Made by a program: the position numbers and the translations under genes. A DNA stretch of 34,258 nucleotides from a virus: positions 1 through 34,258 of the IMG/VR virus record IMGVR_UViG_3300031730_000196. The stretch is one strand, 5' to 3'. The first letter of the stretch is position 1. Every line of letters starts with the position of its first letter. The notes under the pieces are model-generated. The model had not been told where the DNA came from, did no database searches, and saw only the letters and a list, made by a program, of their open reading frames with translations. Positions 3,394-31,853 of this stretch are shown one piece after another.

Positions 3394-3412
3394 ACCGTCA
3401 GGTAGGGTGCTC

Positions 3413-4105
3413 ATGCCATCCTGGTCCGAAATCGCAATCAATCCGACAGCAGAAGCCGTCGCTGAACTCCGCGAATCGTGGTCGTGGCTCTTGGGCGACG
3501 ACTGGCGGCCCATGCTTTTCTCGGCAGTCGGCGACGTCTTCCTTCAGCTTCGTTCTGGCACCGTTTGGTGGCTGAGTACTGCCACAGGCTGTCTTGAGCA
3601 CGTCGCCGAGTCGGAGGCAGACTTCATTGCGAAGCTCTCAGGTGAGCAAGTCGACGAGTGGTTTCTGCCCGGACTTGTCGAATTGCTCCGGTCAAGCGGC
3701 AAGCACTTGTCGCCGGGCCAGTGCTACTCGTACACAACGTTGCCTGTGTTCGCCGAGGGTAGCTTCTCCGTCGAAAACATGTTTCAGATTGACGCGAAGG
3801 AGCATTTTGGCGTCACCGGGCAGATCATGAAACAGATCCAAGCCTTGCCCGATGGCGCCAAGGTTTCCATCGAAGTTGAGAAGTGGGCCGTTGCTCGCCC
3901 GCGGAGCGCCCAACCTGTTCGTCGAGGGGATGAAAAGATGTCGGTCCTATGGACGCGGGTCGTCAACAATCGCGATCTTCCGGCAGACCATCCGAACCGG
4001 TACTTCCACAACGTTGGAACCGGGGTTGTCGAACGTCACAACACTTCTTGCCTGACATTTCTGCCTGTTGGCGACGAACGCAGAAGGCCTCTACGCCCTG
4101 AGTGA
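3413..4105 (+). CDS. DUF1851 / T6SS immunity Tdi1-like protein
   Basis: This 230-residue protein matches the DUF1851 family, whose C-terminal domain is shared with the T6SS immunity protein Tdi1. Typical elements are WLLGDDWRPMLFSAVGDVFLQ, then W-W-L-S-T-x-x-G near residue 50, a helix ending WFLPGLVELL, PGQCYSYTTLPVFAEGSF, and HFGVTGQIMKQIQALPDGAKV at about 125-147. ATG 3413 has GGTAGGG just upstream. Homologues usually stop soon after the PDGxKV segment. Here about 80 extra residues follow, basic and low-complexity in character, so the natural C-terminus may have been lost and the frame may run into downstream non-coding DNA. No matching toxin gene is visible. The immunity role is inferred from the family only. 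Confidence 0.7.
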   Translation: MPSWSEIAINPTAEAVAELRESWSWLLGDDWRPMLFSAVGDVFLQLRSGTVWWLSTATGCLEHVAESEADFIAKLSGEQVDEWFLPGLVELLRSSGKHLSPGQCYSYTTLPVFAEGSFSVENMFQIDAKEHFGVTGQIMKQIQALPDGAKVSIEVEKWAVARPRSAQPVRRGDEKMSVLWTRVVNNRDLPADHPNRYFHNVGTGVVERHNTSCLTFLPVGDERRRPLRPE

Positions 4106-4147: not shown

Positions 4148-4657
4148 ATGCCGTTTTCCTTTCGCTGCGTGTCTTGCGGCCAAGTCCATGAAGGCATGCC
4201 TAGCTTTGGTGCTGAGGCGCCGCTGAACTACTACACAGTCCCAGAAGCGGAGCGCGAACGACGCTGCTTCCTTGGGTCCGACGACTGTGTCATTGATGAA
4301 GAACACTTCTTTGTCCGAGGCTGCATCGAAATTCCCGTACATGGGGAGGCAGAGCCACTCGTGTGGGGAGTTTGGGTATCGCTCAGTGAACAAAGCTTCA
4401 AAGCGTGGGTCGATTCATTTCACGAAGAAAGACGGTCGCACATCGGGCCCTTCTTTGGTTGGCTCAACGCCTGGATCAAGCCGTACCCCGAACCCATGAA
4501 TTTGAAGACTCAAGTTCACCTGCGAGATCACGGAACAAGACCGTACATCGAACTTGAGCCCACCGACCATCCCCTCGCCGTCGAGCAGCGCACTGGAATT
4601 TCGGTTCGTCGAGTTGCAGAGATCTATGCCGCCATGGTTCACGGCGATAGCGCCTGA
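4148..4657 (+). CDS. DUF2199 domain-containing protein
   Basis: This 169-residue protein has the DUF2199 hallmarks. An N-terminal FRCVSCGQVHEGMPSFG holds the paired cysteines (C8, C11) of a small zinc-ribbon-like element. The P-L-N-Y-Y region, the acidic SDDCVIDEEHFFVRGCIEIPV motif, a WGVWVSLS strand and the segment FFGWLNAWIKPYP...MNLKTQVHLRD follow. The family is widespread in bacteria, often on mobile DNA and near immunity-like genes; its biochemical function is unknown. It starts 6 nt after an integron-type GTTAAAC. Its stop codon lies in the loop of a perfect hairpin. Base composition is lower in GC than that of the flanking phage genes. Confidence 0.85.
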   Translation: MPFSFRCVSCGQVHEGMPSFGAEAPLNYYTVPEAERERRCFLGSDDCVIDEEHFFVRGCIEIPVHGEAEPLVWGVWVSLSEQSFKAWVDSFHEERRSHIGPFFGWLNAWIKPYPEPMNLKTQVHLRDHGTRPYIELEPTDHPLAVEQRTGISVRRVAEIYAAMVHGDSA

Positions 4658-15748: not shown

Positions 15749-16147
15749 CTATTGACCAGGACGAGCCCAGCGATCAAGCCCAGCCTTTAGAGCTGTGCGA
15801 TCAATTGGCTTTGACAATACGCCGTCCATGTCGTGCTTAGTGCATTCAGCTAGCGACATTGTGCTGGCGGTCAAGGCCACGATGCGCGTCCTTGGCCGGC
15901 CAGTCTGATGCTCCAGAGCGCGAATCTTGTCCGTCAGCTCCAAGCCGCTCATGCCTGGCATACGCACATCCATGAGTACGAGATCGAAGCCACCGTGCTG
16001 CAAAGCGTCGTAGGCCTCGTGCGGGTTGCTCATGGTGACGGGCTCGACGCCAAACGTCTCTAGCAACGCTTCCATCAGGAGGAGATTCCCGGGGTTGTCG
16101 TCGACGACCATAACCCGTAGCGAACGACAGCTCGCTTCTTCGGACAT
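15749..16147 (-). CDS. Single-domain response regulator (CheY-like receiver)
   Basis: A 132-residue stand-alone receiver with all active-site residues: acidic pair D16-D17 (VMVVDDNPGN), phosphoacceptor D60 (FDLVLMDVRMPGMSG), T93 (ALTAS) and K113 (LSKPI). The sequence style, in particular DNPGNLLLMEALLE and IVALTAS...GVLSKPIDRTALKAGLDRW, is that of receiver domains normally fused to the end of hybrid kinases, so it may be a detached one. There is no output domain. ATG 16147 has GGGGGAG upstream. It is on the same strand as the histidine kinase at 8633-10171, whose own receiver is inactive; the two could form a phosphorelay, although they are separated by 5.6 kb. Confidence 0.9.
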   Translation of the reverse strand: MSEEASCRSLRVMVVDDNPGNLLLMEALLETFGVEPVTMSNPHEAYDALQHGGFDLVLMDVRMPGMSGLELTDKIRALEHQTGRPRTRIVALTASTMSLAECTKHDMDGVLSKPIDRTALKAGLDRWARPGQ

Positions 16148-23618: not shown

Positions 23619-23837
23619 ACTGCAGCGTGCGGGGCGGATCGGCGTGCCATCGATCAGAGCAAGGGCATAGCGGCTGCCGTGTCCGATGGCGCCGGGCCGG
23701 TTCTCACGGTCGACCCGCGACGGCACTTGGTGCGCATCGATCGCTGACTGCCAAGAAACTGCGAAGCCTCCGTGGCGTCCGAGTACCGGGCACCACAATT
23801 GCTCAACGAACATACCTTCCGCCAGAGCCACGACCGC

Positions 23838-24155
23838 ATGGATGAACGTCGACGATCGTCAAGGACACAGTTGGCCATCAGCGCGTTCGTCAAGGTTGAG
23901 GACGTCCAGTTGCACGCCAAGACGCTTGACCTGAGCAGCTCTGGCCTCAGCGTTCTGATGTTTCGGAGCCTGCCGCCCGGCACTTCGTGCGAGATTGAGT
24001 TGCGCTGGATGAGCAACCGGCACTCGGAGTTCATCCAGGCGCGTGCGACCGTCCTGCACGCGTCCCTGGCCGCTGAGGGAGGGTTTCGCGTCGGCATGCG
24101 CTTCGATCACATGGATCAGGAATCTCGGGCGATGTTGTCCATGATTTCGGTGTAG
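23838..24155 (+). CDS. PilZ domain protein (c-di-GMP receptor)
   Basis: A 105-residue single PilZ domain. Both c-di-GMP-binding motifs are intact: RxxxR at R5-R9 (ERRRSSRTQ) and DxSxxG at D31-G36 (LDLSSSGLS). The rest has the family pattern: SLPPGTSCEIELRW, ATVLHASLAAEGGFRVGMRFDHM and a C-terminal helix. ATG 23838 places RxxxR at the N-terminus as usual; a longer version from GTG 23772 is possible, though neither start has a strong ribosome site. PilZ proteins convert c-di-GMP levels into changes in motility, pili or exopolysaccharide. It is not a known virion component, and its neighbours are phage genes, so it is cargo that may alter host surface behaviour; that role is inferred. Confidence 0.85.
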   Translation: MDERRRSSRTQLAISAFVKVEDVQLHAKTLDLSSSGLSVLMFRSLPPGTSCEIELRWMSNRHSEFIQARATVLHASLAAEGGFRVGMRFDHMDQESRAMLSMISV

Positions 24156-27538: not shown

Positions 27539-29431
27539 GTGGGGACTTTCAAGAGCGATGCGCAGGGATTTCTGGTTGGTGACTTGCTGGACACGAACCG
27601 CGGCCTATTGAGAGCTGCAGCTCTGGACAGAGCAATCTGGCGCAGCATTTCAGCCGATGTGGCGGCCATCGCTCGCGCGCTGGGCGCCAGATCTGGGACA
27701 TCCAAGTCTTCGGCACCGGGTCGATCTGCCGCTGGAACTGTCCAACCGACCGGGCGAGGTGCTGCAGCTGGCGCTCATCGCGCGAGTGGCGGAGCCGTCG
27801 GTCCAGAGTCGGCAAGGCGACAAAGCGCGGCGGCTACCCGCATTGCGTCAGCTGGCCGGACATCGACGGTGACTCCACGCATGCGTGACACCCGAGGGCG
27901 GTATCTTGCCGAGAAGGTGAGGTCCGGTCCGACAACCCAACCCCTGGGCCCAGTGTCTGCGGGCGGCATCACCCGTGCGAGGAACGGCCGCTTTGTTGGC
28001 GGAGACTCGCACGCAGGCGTCGACGACGCGCAACGGAACGGCGGCCGGATGCAGACGATCGCCAAGTCCATCGTCGCCGGGCTGCTGGACGCCTCTGGTG
28101 GGAACGCGTCAAGCGTCGATCCCACCCTGCAAGCCGCCGCGGAAATCAAGGATGTGGTGGCACCTCTGGGCCGCGGTGTCTTCTCGGCCATGGGTGAGCG
28201 ACGCAAGGATGCCAAGCGCGAGCGCTGGTACGGCCGCATCCTGAAGGCGCTGACACCAAAGCGACCCACCGACGGCGACCAGTCCACGAACATGCATGGG
28301 GACACGCCAGAGGCAGGAGGCATCTTCAGCGGCCTCATGGGCATGTTGGGACGGTTTCTGCCGGCAGTCCTCACTGCGCTGCTGCCCATGCTGGCAGGGC
28401 TGGGCACTGCGGCCCTGGGCACATGGCTGGGCGGGCGGATCTACGAATGGCTGGACAAGTCCGGCATCCTCACCAAGGTGTTCGATACCTTCGACAACGT
28501 TCGCTCATTCGTAGACGAAGCGAAGAAGAAGGCGACGAGCTGGGGCAGCGACGTGGCTTCCGGCTTTCGAGAGGGCTTCAACGGGTCGCCGGCACTCGAT
28601 GCCAGTGGGCGTGCCATTGACGATCCCCGCCGGCTGGATGTCAAACCGAAATCATTGCCTCAGCGCATCGGCGATGTGGTGGGCAGCGGTGCCCGCGTCG
28701 CGAAGAACGCCTTCGCGAAGTCGTCCGAAGCGGTGGTGCAGGCGGTTGGCGCCGTAAGCAGTGGCGTTCAGCGCGTGGTTGGTGCGGGCAAGGGTTTCAC
28801 CGACATCGAGCAGGCCGATGGCACGGTGTTGCGGCGCACCGGAACGCGCAACTGGCGCAACAACAACCCGGGCAATCTGGAGTTCAACAAGTACACCAAG
28901 TCCCTGGGAGCTTTGGGATCCGATGGACGCTTCGCGGTGTTCCCGACCCTGAAGGAGGGACGAGCAGCGCAGGGGAAGCTGCTGTTTGAAGGCGAGCGAT
29001 ACAAAGGCCTGGACCTCAAGGCGGCGATCGCCCGCTATGCCCCGCCGAATGAGAACGACACCGAGCGGTATCAGCGGTCGGTGCTTGCGTCCGTCCGCGG
29101 ATCGAACCGAAAGATGTCCGACTACTCAGAGGCTGAGCGAGAAGCAATTCTCGACGCCGTGGCAAGCGTCGAGGGGTTCAAGGTCGGGAAGGTCTCATCG
29201 GTTGCTGTTCCGGCAATTGCATCGGTAACGCAACTATCTGGTGGCGCTTCTGCAGCCGCCCCGTCGATGCCTCCATCACCCGCCTTGCCCCCCATCCCCA
29301 AGGTCGATCTGCCGGTCCGACTGGAGGCGGACAAGTCACGGCCGCAGGTCGTCGTTCTGCGGGAGCCCGTGACGCAAAACGTTCAGGACAGGGGGATCGC
29401 CCATGCCGTCACCGGAGGCCTCGGGAACTAA
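27539..29431 (+). CDS. Tape-measure-like protein with NNPGN muralytic-type domain
   Basis: A 630-residue tail protein starting at GTG 27539 (GGAG 9 nt upstream). The N-terminal 230 residues are polar and low-complexity. A hydrophobic stretch (about 262-304, MGMLGRFLPAVLTALLPMLA) can insert in a membrane, as in tape-measure proteins. Residues about 436-560 carry RNNNPGNLEFN (N441-L447), DGRFAVFPTLKEGRAAQ and DLKAAIARYAPPNENDT, the signature of a NNPGN domain found in phage structural proteins and thought to cleave peptidoglycan. The C-terminus is Pro-rich. It should span the tail and aid envelope penetration; enzymatic activity is inferred from the family, and the length is short for a tape measure. 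Confidence 0.7.
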   Translation: MGTFKSDAQGFLVGDLLDTNRGLLRAAALDRAIWRSISADVAAIARALGARSGTSKSSAPGRSAAGTVQPTGRGAAAGAHRASGGAVGPESARRQSAAATRIASAGRTSTVTPRMRDTRGRYLAEKVRSGPTTQPLGPVSAGGITRARNGRFVGGDSHAGVDDAQRNGGRMQTIAKSIVAGLLDASGGNASSVDPTLQAAAEIKDVVAPLGRGVFSAMGERRKDAKRERWYGRILKALTPKRPTDGDQSTNMHGDTPEAGGIFSGLMGMLGRFLPAVLTALLPMLAGLGTAALGTWLGGRIYEWLDKSGILTKVFDTFDNVRSFVDEAKKKATSWGSDVASGFREGFNGSPALDASGRAIDDPRRLDVKPKSLPQRIGDVVGSGARVAKNAFAKSSEAVVQAVGAVSSGVQRVVGAGKGFTDIEQADGTVLRRTGTRNWRNNNPGNLEFNKYTKSLGALGSDGRFAVFPTLKEGRAAQGKLLFEGERYKGLDLKAAIARYAPPNENDTERYQRSVLASVRGSNRKMSDYSEAEREAILDAVASVEGFKVGKVSSVAVPAIASVTQLSGGASAAAPSMPPSPALPPIPKVDLPVRLEADKSRPQVVVLREPVTQNVQDRGIAHAVTGGLGN

Positions 29432-29694: not shown

Positions 29695-30048
29695 CTACTG
29701 GACGACGAAGTCCCTGATGCACTTGTCCACGTTGCTCTTGCGGGCTGCACCGGCCAGCTTCTTGTCGTCGGCGTTGGCGTTGCAAGTAGCCTGTACGTCC
29801 GGCGTCATGTCAGTGATGCACTTCTTCGTGAAGGCAGTCTTCGCCGCGCCGGCGAGCTTCTTGTCGGTGGCCTGACCGTCACAGGTAGCCCGAGAAGCCG
29901 CGACCGCGTCGTTCGTGCATTTCTTCAAGGTACTGGCCTTGGCCGCACCGGCCAGGTTCTTCGCCGCAACCTGGGCAACGCAGGTGTCGCCGGCTTGAGC
30001 GGCGAGGGGGATCATGGCGGCGATCAAGGCAAGGGCGGCGATTCTCAT
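29695..30048 (-). CDS. psiF: PsiF-repeat exported protein
   Basis: A 117-residue protein with a signal peptide (MRIAALALIAAMIPLAAQAG, cleavage after AQA). Three PsiF repeats follow: CVAQVAAKNLAGAAKASTLKKC, CDGQATDKKLAGAAKTAFTKKC and CNANADDKKLAGAARKSNVDKC. Each is bounded by two cysteines with the core KxLAGAA. E. coli psiF is phosphate-starvation-inducible; the family's biochemical role is unknown. The repeats are periplasmic and likely disulphide-bonded. ATG 30048 has no strong ribosome site. It is a host-type gene within phage DNA and shares its strand with the conserved gene downstream (29477-29680). Confidence 0.9.
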   Translation of the reverse strand: MRIAALALIAAMIPLAAQAGDTCVAQVAAKNLAGAAKASTLKKCTNDAVAASRATCDGQATDKKLAGAAKTAFTKKCITDMTPDVQATCNANADDKKLAGAARKSNVDKCIRDFVVQ

Positions 30049-30081: not shown

Positions 30082-30449
30082 CTAGCCCTGCTTGGCCGGA
30101 TTGCGCCAGTCCCAGAATGCCGCCGGGGCAGCAGCCGGCTGATTCACGTTGATCTGTTGTGCCTGGCCCTGATGCGTCGTCCTTCGAGCGGACCGGACCA
30201 CGGGACGCACGTCGCCTTGGCCTGGGTCGGCGTGAACACAAGCCAGCGTTGGTACTTGGCCCGATCGAGGATCACCGGCATGCGCTGTTCTTCTCGTGGG
30301 ACCGTGGTCGCTCCTTGGCCCCGCCACGACTGAACGACGATAAAACGGCCGGACAATCTGGCGGCACAGGAAGCCCCTGCGGCGCCGAAAACAGCGCACA
30401 CCATTCCCATAGCCAGCACCAGGGATGGAAAATCGTCATCCGTCAACAC
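30082..30449 (-). pseudogene. Membrane-anchored hypothetical gene with probable frameshift
   Basis: The upstream frame (to about 30190) reads a short acidic start, one hydrophobic helix (FPSLVLAMGMVCAVFGAAGA) and then GATTVPREEQRMPVILDRAK. Coding-like third positions then switch to another frame ending NVNQPAAAPAAFWDWRNP at TAG 30082. One indel near 30190 would join them into about 120 residues. RMPVIL followed by Y..WL recalls the end of SOS-associated peptidases (SRAP), which would suit the nearby LexA-controlled gene, but the match is only a dozen residues. No ribosome site is seen. Low confidence. Confidence 0.35.
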
Positions 30450-30468: not shown

Positions 30469-30657
30469 ATGGCGTTGCCACCCGGACTTCTGACCCTTAC
30501 GTTGGGCTTCGCTGCTGGCTTGGCAGTGCTGACCGTCGGATACGTCGTGTATCGCCTGATGGTGCGATGGATCGAGCACAAAGAGCGCAAAGCCGATCTC
30601 AGAGCCCGAGAGCAGCTCCATTGGCCACCGACAGACAAGCCGCCGCGATCAAGCTGA
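30469..30657 (+). CDS. Small single-pass membrane protein
   Basis: A 62-residue protein from ATG 30469 with AAGGGAG 6 nt upstream, a strong start. One transmembrane helix (residues about 5-30, PGLLTLTLGFAAGLAVLTVGYVVYRLM) is followed by a charged tail (KERKADLRAREQLHW). It lies between minus-strand genes and on the plus strand like the phage genes. Unknown function; size and topology are compatible with a phage membrane protein. Confidence 0.6.
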   Translation: MALPPGLLTLTLGFAAGLAVLTVGYVVYRLMVRWIEHKERKADLRAREQLHWPPTDKPPRSS

Positions 30658-30694: not shown

Positions 30695-31111
30695 CTAGTC
30701 GTCCCTCTCTCCGGGGATTCTGCATGCGGGACCTGGCAACCACTCCACCACGACGCCAAAGTCTCGCAATCGCTTGTTCATGCGGCCGACGATGCTCTCA
30801 AGGCGCATCACTTCCCGATCCTCAATGGGAGTCAGGTACCAGCCCTGCGCATAGAGCCTCACGTCCTGCAGCGGGCCCTCTGTCGCCTCCTCTGTGCCCG
30901 CCAGCGAGATCCAGTGAGAGGTGCAGCCGAGCAAGACCGCATCGCGCAACGGCGGAATAGGCGTCTTGTCGACGGCCTCAAAGGTGGCCACACGCACCAT
31001 CCGATTTTGGTCGTACTTGTCCTTGACTGAGAGGCGACCGCGGTGCGTGATGCGCTCGATTTGCCACGACAGTTTCCCTCGGTCGCGGAGGCGGGACAGC
31101 AAGAACTCCAT
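30695..31111 (-). CDS. LexA-controlled hypothetical protein
   Basis: A 138-residue protein: MEFLLSRLRDRGKLSWQIERITHRG, RMVRVATFEAVDKTPIPPL, DAVLLGCTSHWISLAG and AQGWYLTPIEDREVMRLES. It is mixed alpha/beta without signal peptide or membrane segment and not recognised. The LexA box 31119-31138 ends only 7 nt before the ATG, so the mRNA would be leaderless or nearly so, or the true start is slightly internal (TTG 31102 has GGAG upstream). This is direct evidence that the gene is SOS-regulated. It is on the same strand as the possibly broken gene at 30082-30449 and the PsiF gene. Confidence 0.7.
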   Translation of the reverse strand: MEFLLSRLRDRGKLSWQIERITHRGRLSVKDKYDQNRMVRVATFEAVDKTPIPPLRDAVLLGCTSHWISLAGTEEATEGPLQDVRLYAQGWYLTPIEDREVMRLESIVGRMNKRLRDFGVVVEWLPGPACRIPGERDD

Positions 31112-31118
31112 AGCGAAA

Positions 31119-31138
31119 TACTGTATTTATCAACAGTA
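31119..31138 (-). promoter_or_regulatory. LexA (SOS) box
   Basis: TACTGTATTTATCAACAGTA matches the enterobacterial/betaproteobacterial LexA consensus TACTGT-N8-ACAGTA, with perfect CTGT and ACAG half-sites (31121-31136). It lies immediately upstream of the minus-strand gene starting at 31111. RecA-dependent LexA cleavage would derepress that gene after DNA damage. Confidence 0.85.
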
Positions 31139-31358: not shown

Positions 31359-31853
31359 ATGTCTGTTCAGACCGCCGCCGTGCTGATGGGGCACTACAAC
31401 GCCGCCCGCCTGCTGGGCGACAAGTCGGTGTCCTCTGACGCCATGTTGGTCATCGATGGTCACGAGGAACTCACGCTGCTGACCAAGCAGTTCCCGTGGC
31501 CTGTCATTGGCGTCATGGGAGAAATCGAAGTCCCCGGGCCGATGGGCATGCAGAGCTGGCAGCCACAGGCGCTGAAGACGGCGCACCAGGGACCGCTGAC
31601 GCTGTCGGAAACTGTCTCCGGTTCGGTGGCCAAGTTCCTGGCCGACGTGGCCATCGGCGGGGCTAAATTCCAGGCGACGGCCTACGAAGGAACACCCGAA
31701 GCCTTCCACTACGCGTGGAAGCTGCGCGACTGCTTCTTTGTGCCGGAAGCGCCGGACCGTGACTGGGAGAACCGCAGCCAGGTGACCAACGTAACCGGCA
31801 CGCTGTTCTTCCACTTCTTCGGTGAGAAGGTCGCCGGCAACATCTTTGTCTGA
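31359..31853 (+). CDS. Putative tail tube protein
   Basis: A 164-residue beta-rich protein with the build of contractile-phage tail tube proteins. After an N-terminal MSVQTAAVLMGHYNAARLLGDKS, the sequence TLLTKQFPWPVIGVMGEIEVPGPMGMQSWQPQAL leads to a strand-helix-strand core (SGSVAKFLADVAIGGAKFQATAY, KLRDCFFVPEAPDRDW) and ends with LFFHFFGEKVAGN. ATG 31359 is chosen over the longer upstream frame, which is not coding-like; the ribosome site is weak. It begins the baseplate/tail operon running to 34258. The function is inferred from the fold pattern and gene order. Confidence 0.7.
   Translation: MSVQTAAVLMGHYNAARLLGDKSVSSDAMLVIDGHEELTLLTKQFPWPVIGVMGEIEVPGPMGMQSWQPQALKTAHQGPLTLSETVSGSVAKFLADVAIGGAKFQATAYEGTPEAFHYAWKLRDCFFVPEAPDRDWENRSQVTNVTGTLFFHFFGEKVAGNIFV

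Follow-up and report, generated by a model that had tools for sequence, protein, structure and literature searches.

A gene probably repressed by LexA on a P1-like phage-plasmid, and its relatives on other mobile elements

A perfect LexA box lies almost against the start codon of a gene for an unrecognised protein, on phage-like DNA. Two questions are raised by this arrangement: is the gene under control of the SOS response of the host, and what could its product be? The window, that is, the whole stretch of 34,258 nucleotides analysed here, is a 34-kb contig recorded in IMG/VR. The features at the center of the question are as follows.

30695..31111, minus strand: gene of P138, a protein of 138 amino acids, studied by coding statistics, HMM, hhalign, alignment and a single-sequence model; residues 1-93 carry homology to a PHROG 5560-like family and residues 94-138 form an extension, partly predicted as helix with low confidence.
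31112..31118, minus strand: 7-nt spacer TTTCGCT from the box to the ATG, without Shine-Dalgarno sequence, as read from the sequence.
31119..31138, no strand assigned: LexA (SOS) box TACTGT-N8-ACAGTA, an exact match, the sole one in the window, conserved in homologues.

The exact 20-mer TACTGTATTTATCAACAGTA occupies positions 31119-31138. Read on the minus strand, the arrangement is TACTGTTGATAAATACAGTA-TTTCGCT-ATG, with 7 nt between the box and the ATG at 31111-31109. A preliminary description of this DNA had placed a perfect TACTGT-N8-ACAGTA motif 7 nt from the minus-strand ATG of a 138-residue gene, which is confirmed as exact and unique; the range 31109-31138 that it gave does contain the box but also takes in the start codon. 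The 20-mer remains unique in the 34 kb when up to two mismatches are allowed. With a matrix of E. coli SOS boxes, the box scores 22.7 bits, within the range of known boxes, with the reservation that the LexA motif of the host may differ from that of E. coli; by the same matrix, all the next-best sites elsewhere in the window are below 9 bits. A promoter scan recognised no sigma-70-type promoter at the box or at P138. Imperfect CTG-N10-CAG sites are frequent in the window, as might be expected if the palindrome had arisen by chance beside an ordinary gene. However, the exact motif is expected 7e-5 times in the window (first-order Markov model, 63% GC) and it is conserved throughout a protein family, as described below. 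A chance palindrome is strongly disfavoured and appears extremely improbable.

The DNA that carries this site can be assigned from its gene content. Because a portal protein (phrog_1497, E=3e-143), a tail tube protein, Hdf (E=1e-32) and DarA_N (E=7e-11) markers, and a 2193-aa DarB-like (methylase-helicase) ORF, recognised by reading and placed as in the P1 neighbourhood, are all present, the window is assigned to a P1-like phage-plasmid, of which it is a fragment that may lack the plasmid replication and partition genes. P138 is located in a gap of this backbone that holds cargo.

27539..29431, plus strand: tail/transglycosylase gene that bounds the cargo gap on the left, supported by PHROG matches and by the same position in relatives.
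29695..30048, minus strand: exported 117-aa protein with a psiF repeat, in the gap (Pfam PF07769, E=4e-6).
30144..30449, minus strand: remnant of an SRAP (YedK/HMCES-type) gene, in which only a C-terminal motif (30210-30290) is recognisable.
30469..30657, plus strand: 62-aa ORF in the gap, its ATG preceded by GGAG; a single membrane stretch is predicted and the coding score is weak.
31359..31853, plus strand: tail tube gene that bounds the gap on the right (phrog_1120, E=1.5e-40).

The space separating the tail/transglycosylase and tail tube genes is, in relatives, either empty or occupied by different small cargo. It behaves as a hot spot, with contents that vary in many relatives (L015, L020, L042, L043, L198-L200). 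A search of 125 P1-like relatives did not reveal P138. Over 2.1 Mb of sequence from 125 related loci, a single site reaches 15 bits, and the box is therefore most likely to have arrived together with the cargo rather than with the phage backbone. Other parts of the window also carry genes of bacterial type. A PAS histidine kinase with a receiver-like N-terminus, a signalling gene of bacterial kind on phage DNA (8633-10171, minus strand), a lone response regulator (15749-16147, minus strand) and a PilZ protein (23772-24155, plus strand) have no counterparts in the related loci checked. A protein with a C-terminal domain of the T6SS Tdi1-immunity type (3407-4105, plus strand) adjoins a DUF2199 protein (4148-4657, plus strand), which shares 64-71% identity with genes on the chromosomes of two orders.

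Concerning the SRAP gene behind P138, the match to Pfam SRAP (E=0.0057) is below the cut-off, an SRAP model gives E=3e-4 in the record, and a purpose-built SRAP HMM gives E=3.5e-4. Of 15 plasmid matches to the remnant, 13 are annotated as SRAP genes. The matching part corresponds to profile positions 164-194 of 214, and the N-terminus with the autoprocessing Cys2, like the full domain, is missing. By these comparisons the fragment is a remnant and not a working SRAP.

The frame of P138 itself has coding character (0.23 bits per codon, GC3 0.79) and the longer overlapping frames score negative. Searches with the protein gave no match in viral contigs, genome contigs, plasmids or phages, nor in Pfam (up to E=10), PHROGs, NCBIfam, PADLOC or the PDB. 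The approximately 1,240 whole genomes searched gave no match either, and none of the collections yielded a close relative. Weak matches at L053-L061 were judged to be chance frames. The single-sequence model was too poor for use (pLDDT 45).

A family was found by following the switch instead of the protein. Viral contigs were scanned for near-perfect LexA boxes and the gene behind each of them was inspected. One of these genes, starting 10 nt from its box, encodes a 97-aa protein which shares M-x-F-L-L-x-R, IPxLxDA and YAQxW with P138 and corresponds to PHROG 5560, of unknown function. Against a family HMM built without P138, P138 scores 26.8 bits (E=1.4e-5, 44,000 sequences), to be compared with 10.0 bits for the best of 3000 shuffled controls; these values are from iteration 1, since iterations 2 and beyond took in the window's own locus (L274), a contamination for which they were left unused. 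With hhalign, residues 1-93 of P138 align to the family at 94.3% (E=1e-7), as compared with 0.2-0.4% for two unrelated proteins of the window. All nine invariant columns of a 60-row family alignment (M1, R9, G12, P60, L62, G79, Y88, Q90 and W92) are kept in P138. By sequence comparison, P138 is homologous to the PHROG 5560 family while falling outside the published model: none of the published PHROG models matches P138, and the PHROG 5560 model matches 58 of the 60 alignment rows. P138 and the PHROG 5560 proteins have in common a homologous core, a LexA box by the start and no obvious Shine-Dalgarno sequence. P138 differs by an identity of 26-31% to the rest of the family and by its C-terminal 45 residues, an extension that is unique.

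Among near-perfect boxes in viral contigs, 98 loci with a pickable gene (within L078-L197) mostly have a small gene 10-25 nt away. Several unnamed families recur behind such boxes, for example MARESDI..., MKVEVTIERTKKLPDG... and MGFPSPA....

Looking for homologues and for the box upstream of them had been suggested as a check on the proposed SOS control. Homologues were found, and in them the box is conserved, either at the start of the family gene or one gene before. In a set collected by protein similarity alone, 80 of 81 members of the first lineage have their ATG 10-11 nt behind a strong box. In the second lineage the box stands 200-300 nt upstream, in front of the approximately 80-aa first gene of a two-gene operon (77/80), and among named records, also collected by similarity, it is found 7-21 nt from the start in four of six. 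The exceptions are phages PG1 and pAN, where the family gene directly follows SRAP and no box is recognisable. Over the viral family loci, 157 of 165 strong sites are located just upstream of the family operon. Members found through the box (L122, L161, L134, L120, L131, L162, L189 and L145) were not counted, their boxes being excluded as evidence. Many of the counted members are close relatives and the independent lineages are few: at a level of about 50% identity, two large lineages, phage Medea1, a plasmid pair and inovirus PfAC02b have the box, and PG1/pAN do not. Judged from these sites, the predicted SOS control is conserved in the family. The conservation in homologues collected by similarity (80/81, 77/80, 4/6), all of them distant from P138, supports the SOS control proposed for it, and repression of P138 itself by LexA would appear very probable.

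The near-zero leader had been considered unusual and taken to imply leaderless translation or a slightly internal start. Because a box-to-ATG distance of 10-11 nt prevails among the relatives, a short leader is normal for the family; in PfAC02b the distance is exactly 7 nt, and the 7-nt spacing of P138 falls in the family range of 7-21 nt. An internal start is disfavoured, and the ATG at 31111 is supported, since the family aligns with P138 from its residue 1 onwards. Leaderless translation is not required either, because transcription could begin inside the box. A scan for leaders of the P138 type retrieved no family member. In two remote members (L161 and L122), the likely start codon is located inside the LexA box (ATGTACAGT), so that the operator and the coding start would overlap.

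If the box is an operator, one may ask which repressor reads it. It may be imagined that the palindrome is the operator of a phage-encoded repressor and not of host LexA, given that phages encode their own repressors and that the window represents 34 kb of an element of probably 75-95 kb, with the repressor region absent. However, the window contains no second copy of the palindrome. The identical motif stands in front of recA, imuA-like, radical-SAM and integrase genes, that is, recA and other genes of SOS type, in the host genomes of related phages (genes identified by reading), and the box is common to family members on elements as unrelated as an inovirus, siphophages and plasmids. An operator of a phage repressor is consequently given very little probability.

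It may also be envisaged that the LexA of the natural host does not read CTGT-N8-ACAG, in which case the box would be silent there. Xanthomonadales would be such a case, their LexA reading a different motif. The DUF2199 cargo is almost equally near to Burkholderiales and Xanthomonadales genes; moreover, related phages occur in Xanthomonas and in Luteibacter, and no perfect LexA site is present in the Luteibacter genome. On the other hand, Burkholderiales and similar bacteria are the hosts of most relatives of the phage, and of 13 genomes of this kind that were searched, 9 contain the motif. Betaproteobacteria in general mostly use CTGT-N8-ACAG as LexA motif (PMC6595937). On balance, a silent box seems improbable, and a box read by the LexA of the host remains the preferred reading.

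What, then, is the family under this control? Its members are found in viral contigs, in Pseudomonas phages Medea1, PG1 and pAN, in inovirus PfAC02b and on plasmids of P. syringae and P. cerasi; two scans gave 204 and 390 viral stretches encoding a relative, sets that may overlap. In the PfAC02b inovirus locus (L403), the family member is 7 nt behind its LexA box and near a Gabija defence system. The core of the family is predicted to be a small six-stranded beta-barrel, as modelled for member L162 from the family alignment (pLDDT 95). Its fold neighbours are weak PH-/RanBD-like barrels, the best VIA-align Z scores, 5.4 for PH domains and 5.0 for EndoMS, being in the common range, and Foldseek gave no match to the model with E below 0.04. 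Because these structural matches are too weak, no function is drawn from the fold.

Gene neighbours bring further indications. A gene for a small helical protein stands after the family gene in the first lineage, and in the second a homologous helical protein comes first (reciprocal E of about 1e-8, hhalign 96%). HMMs of these partners gave nothing convincing in the window. The partner gene characterises the two main lineages; other members have SRAP or S24 neighbours. SRAP is divergent from the family gene and shares its box on the P. syringae and P. cerasi plasmids and in several viral contigs, and it is upstream of the family gene in phages PG1 and pAN. Downstream of the family gene, the same plasmids encode an S24 (UmuD-like) peptidase. 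Within the first set, SRAP is nearby in just 9 of 91 members, most of them closely related. At thirty Burkholderiales SRAP loci, the surrounding 1.5 kb or so contained no LexA box and no P138-like gene. A parallel between these SRAP neighbours and that of P138 is weakened by the arrangement, since the SRAP of P138 is broken and in tandem whereas the other lineages have it divergent or upstream. In two viral contigs (L136 and L189), a perfect LexA box precedes an SRAP gene by 50-60 nt, and the box of L189 is common to SRAP and a divergent family gene.

Phage genes under the control of LexA have precedents, and several known systems may be compared with P138. Phage P1 carries a near-identical LexA box, TACTGTATAAATGAACAGTA, between lxr and humD, so that P1 and the window are alike in having a LexA box at accessory genes of a P1-type phage-plasmid; the genes and their location are different. 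The possibility that P1 lxr is a homologue of P138 was rejected, tblastn on the P1 record giving no match at lxr or humD. Both genes are nonessential in P1 as assessed by CRISPRi (PMC10695390). The N15 antirepressor and GIL01 likewise illustrate the control of a phage or phage-plasmid gene by host LexA (PMC11652158); unlike in these cases, nothing indicates that P138 is a regulator of the lysis-lysogeny decision. SRAP genes are already known from SOS operons and from temperate phages (PMC3765255). The present family recalls these operons, SRAP standing beside it in several lineages and as a remnant behind P138, with the difference that the SRAP of the window is broken. The passages of that account consulted here make no mention of the small beta-barrel family. 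The same account describes a standalone ImuB-C domain next to SRAP, which is likewise small, mostly beta, linked to SOS and endowed with a conserved C-terminal tryptophan (PMC3765255). The two differ in that the family has no sequence match to it, with no Pfam match up to E=10 and weak PH/RanBD-like fold matches.

Considering these data together, P138 is likely a LexA-repressed accessory gene, induced by DNA damage, on a P1-like phage-plasmid. In such a model, host LexA bound at the box would block transcription because it would cover the site required by RNA polymerase. RecA filaments formed on damaged DNA would then trigger self-cleavage of LexA, and P138 would be made. A role of P138 in damage tolerance has about an even chance. 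The beta-barrel core of about 95 residues might act there as a protein- or DNA-binding adaptor, which would probably work with SOS proteins such as SRAP, a UmuD-like protein or the small helical partner; for P138, this precise mechanism is rather doubtful.

The box may, alternatively, be read by LexA while P138 is a relic of a decaying mobile SOS cassette (box, family gene and SRAP), degrading alongside SRAP and of no more importance to the phage. The reduction of SRAP to a C-terminal fragment, the divergence of P138 with its unusual tail and the variation of the cargo gap between relatives are all in line with such decay. In contrast, the frame of P138 is intact with coding bias, the nine invariant family residues are kept and the box is perfect, and a relic is held to be unlikely, if worth bearing in mind.

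Beyond P138, the only label of this family is "unknown function", although a LexA box precedes almost all of the members examined. The present case illustrates how a search for the regulatory site may place a gene that protein searches leave as an apparent orphan. More tentatively, and with some reserve, it may be hypothesized that an as yet unnamed LexA-controlled module, made of a PH-like beta-barrel and a small helical partner, often with SRAP or a UmuD-like peptidase, has spread across mobile elements and tunes damage tolerance or the SOS response. If so, the module would extend over tailed phages, an inovirus and plasmids, would adjust damage tolerance or SOS in infected cells, and P138 would be its C-terminally extended form on a P1-like phage-plasmid. 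The link with SOS, the helical partner, SRAP and the UmuD-like peptidase may offer an entry to what mobile elements make first upon damage to the DNA of their host.
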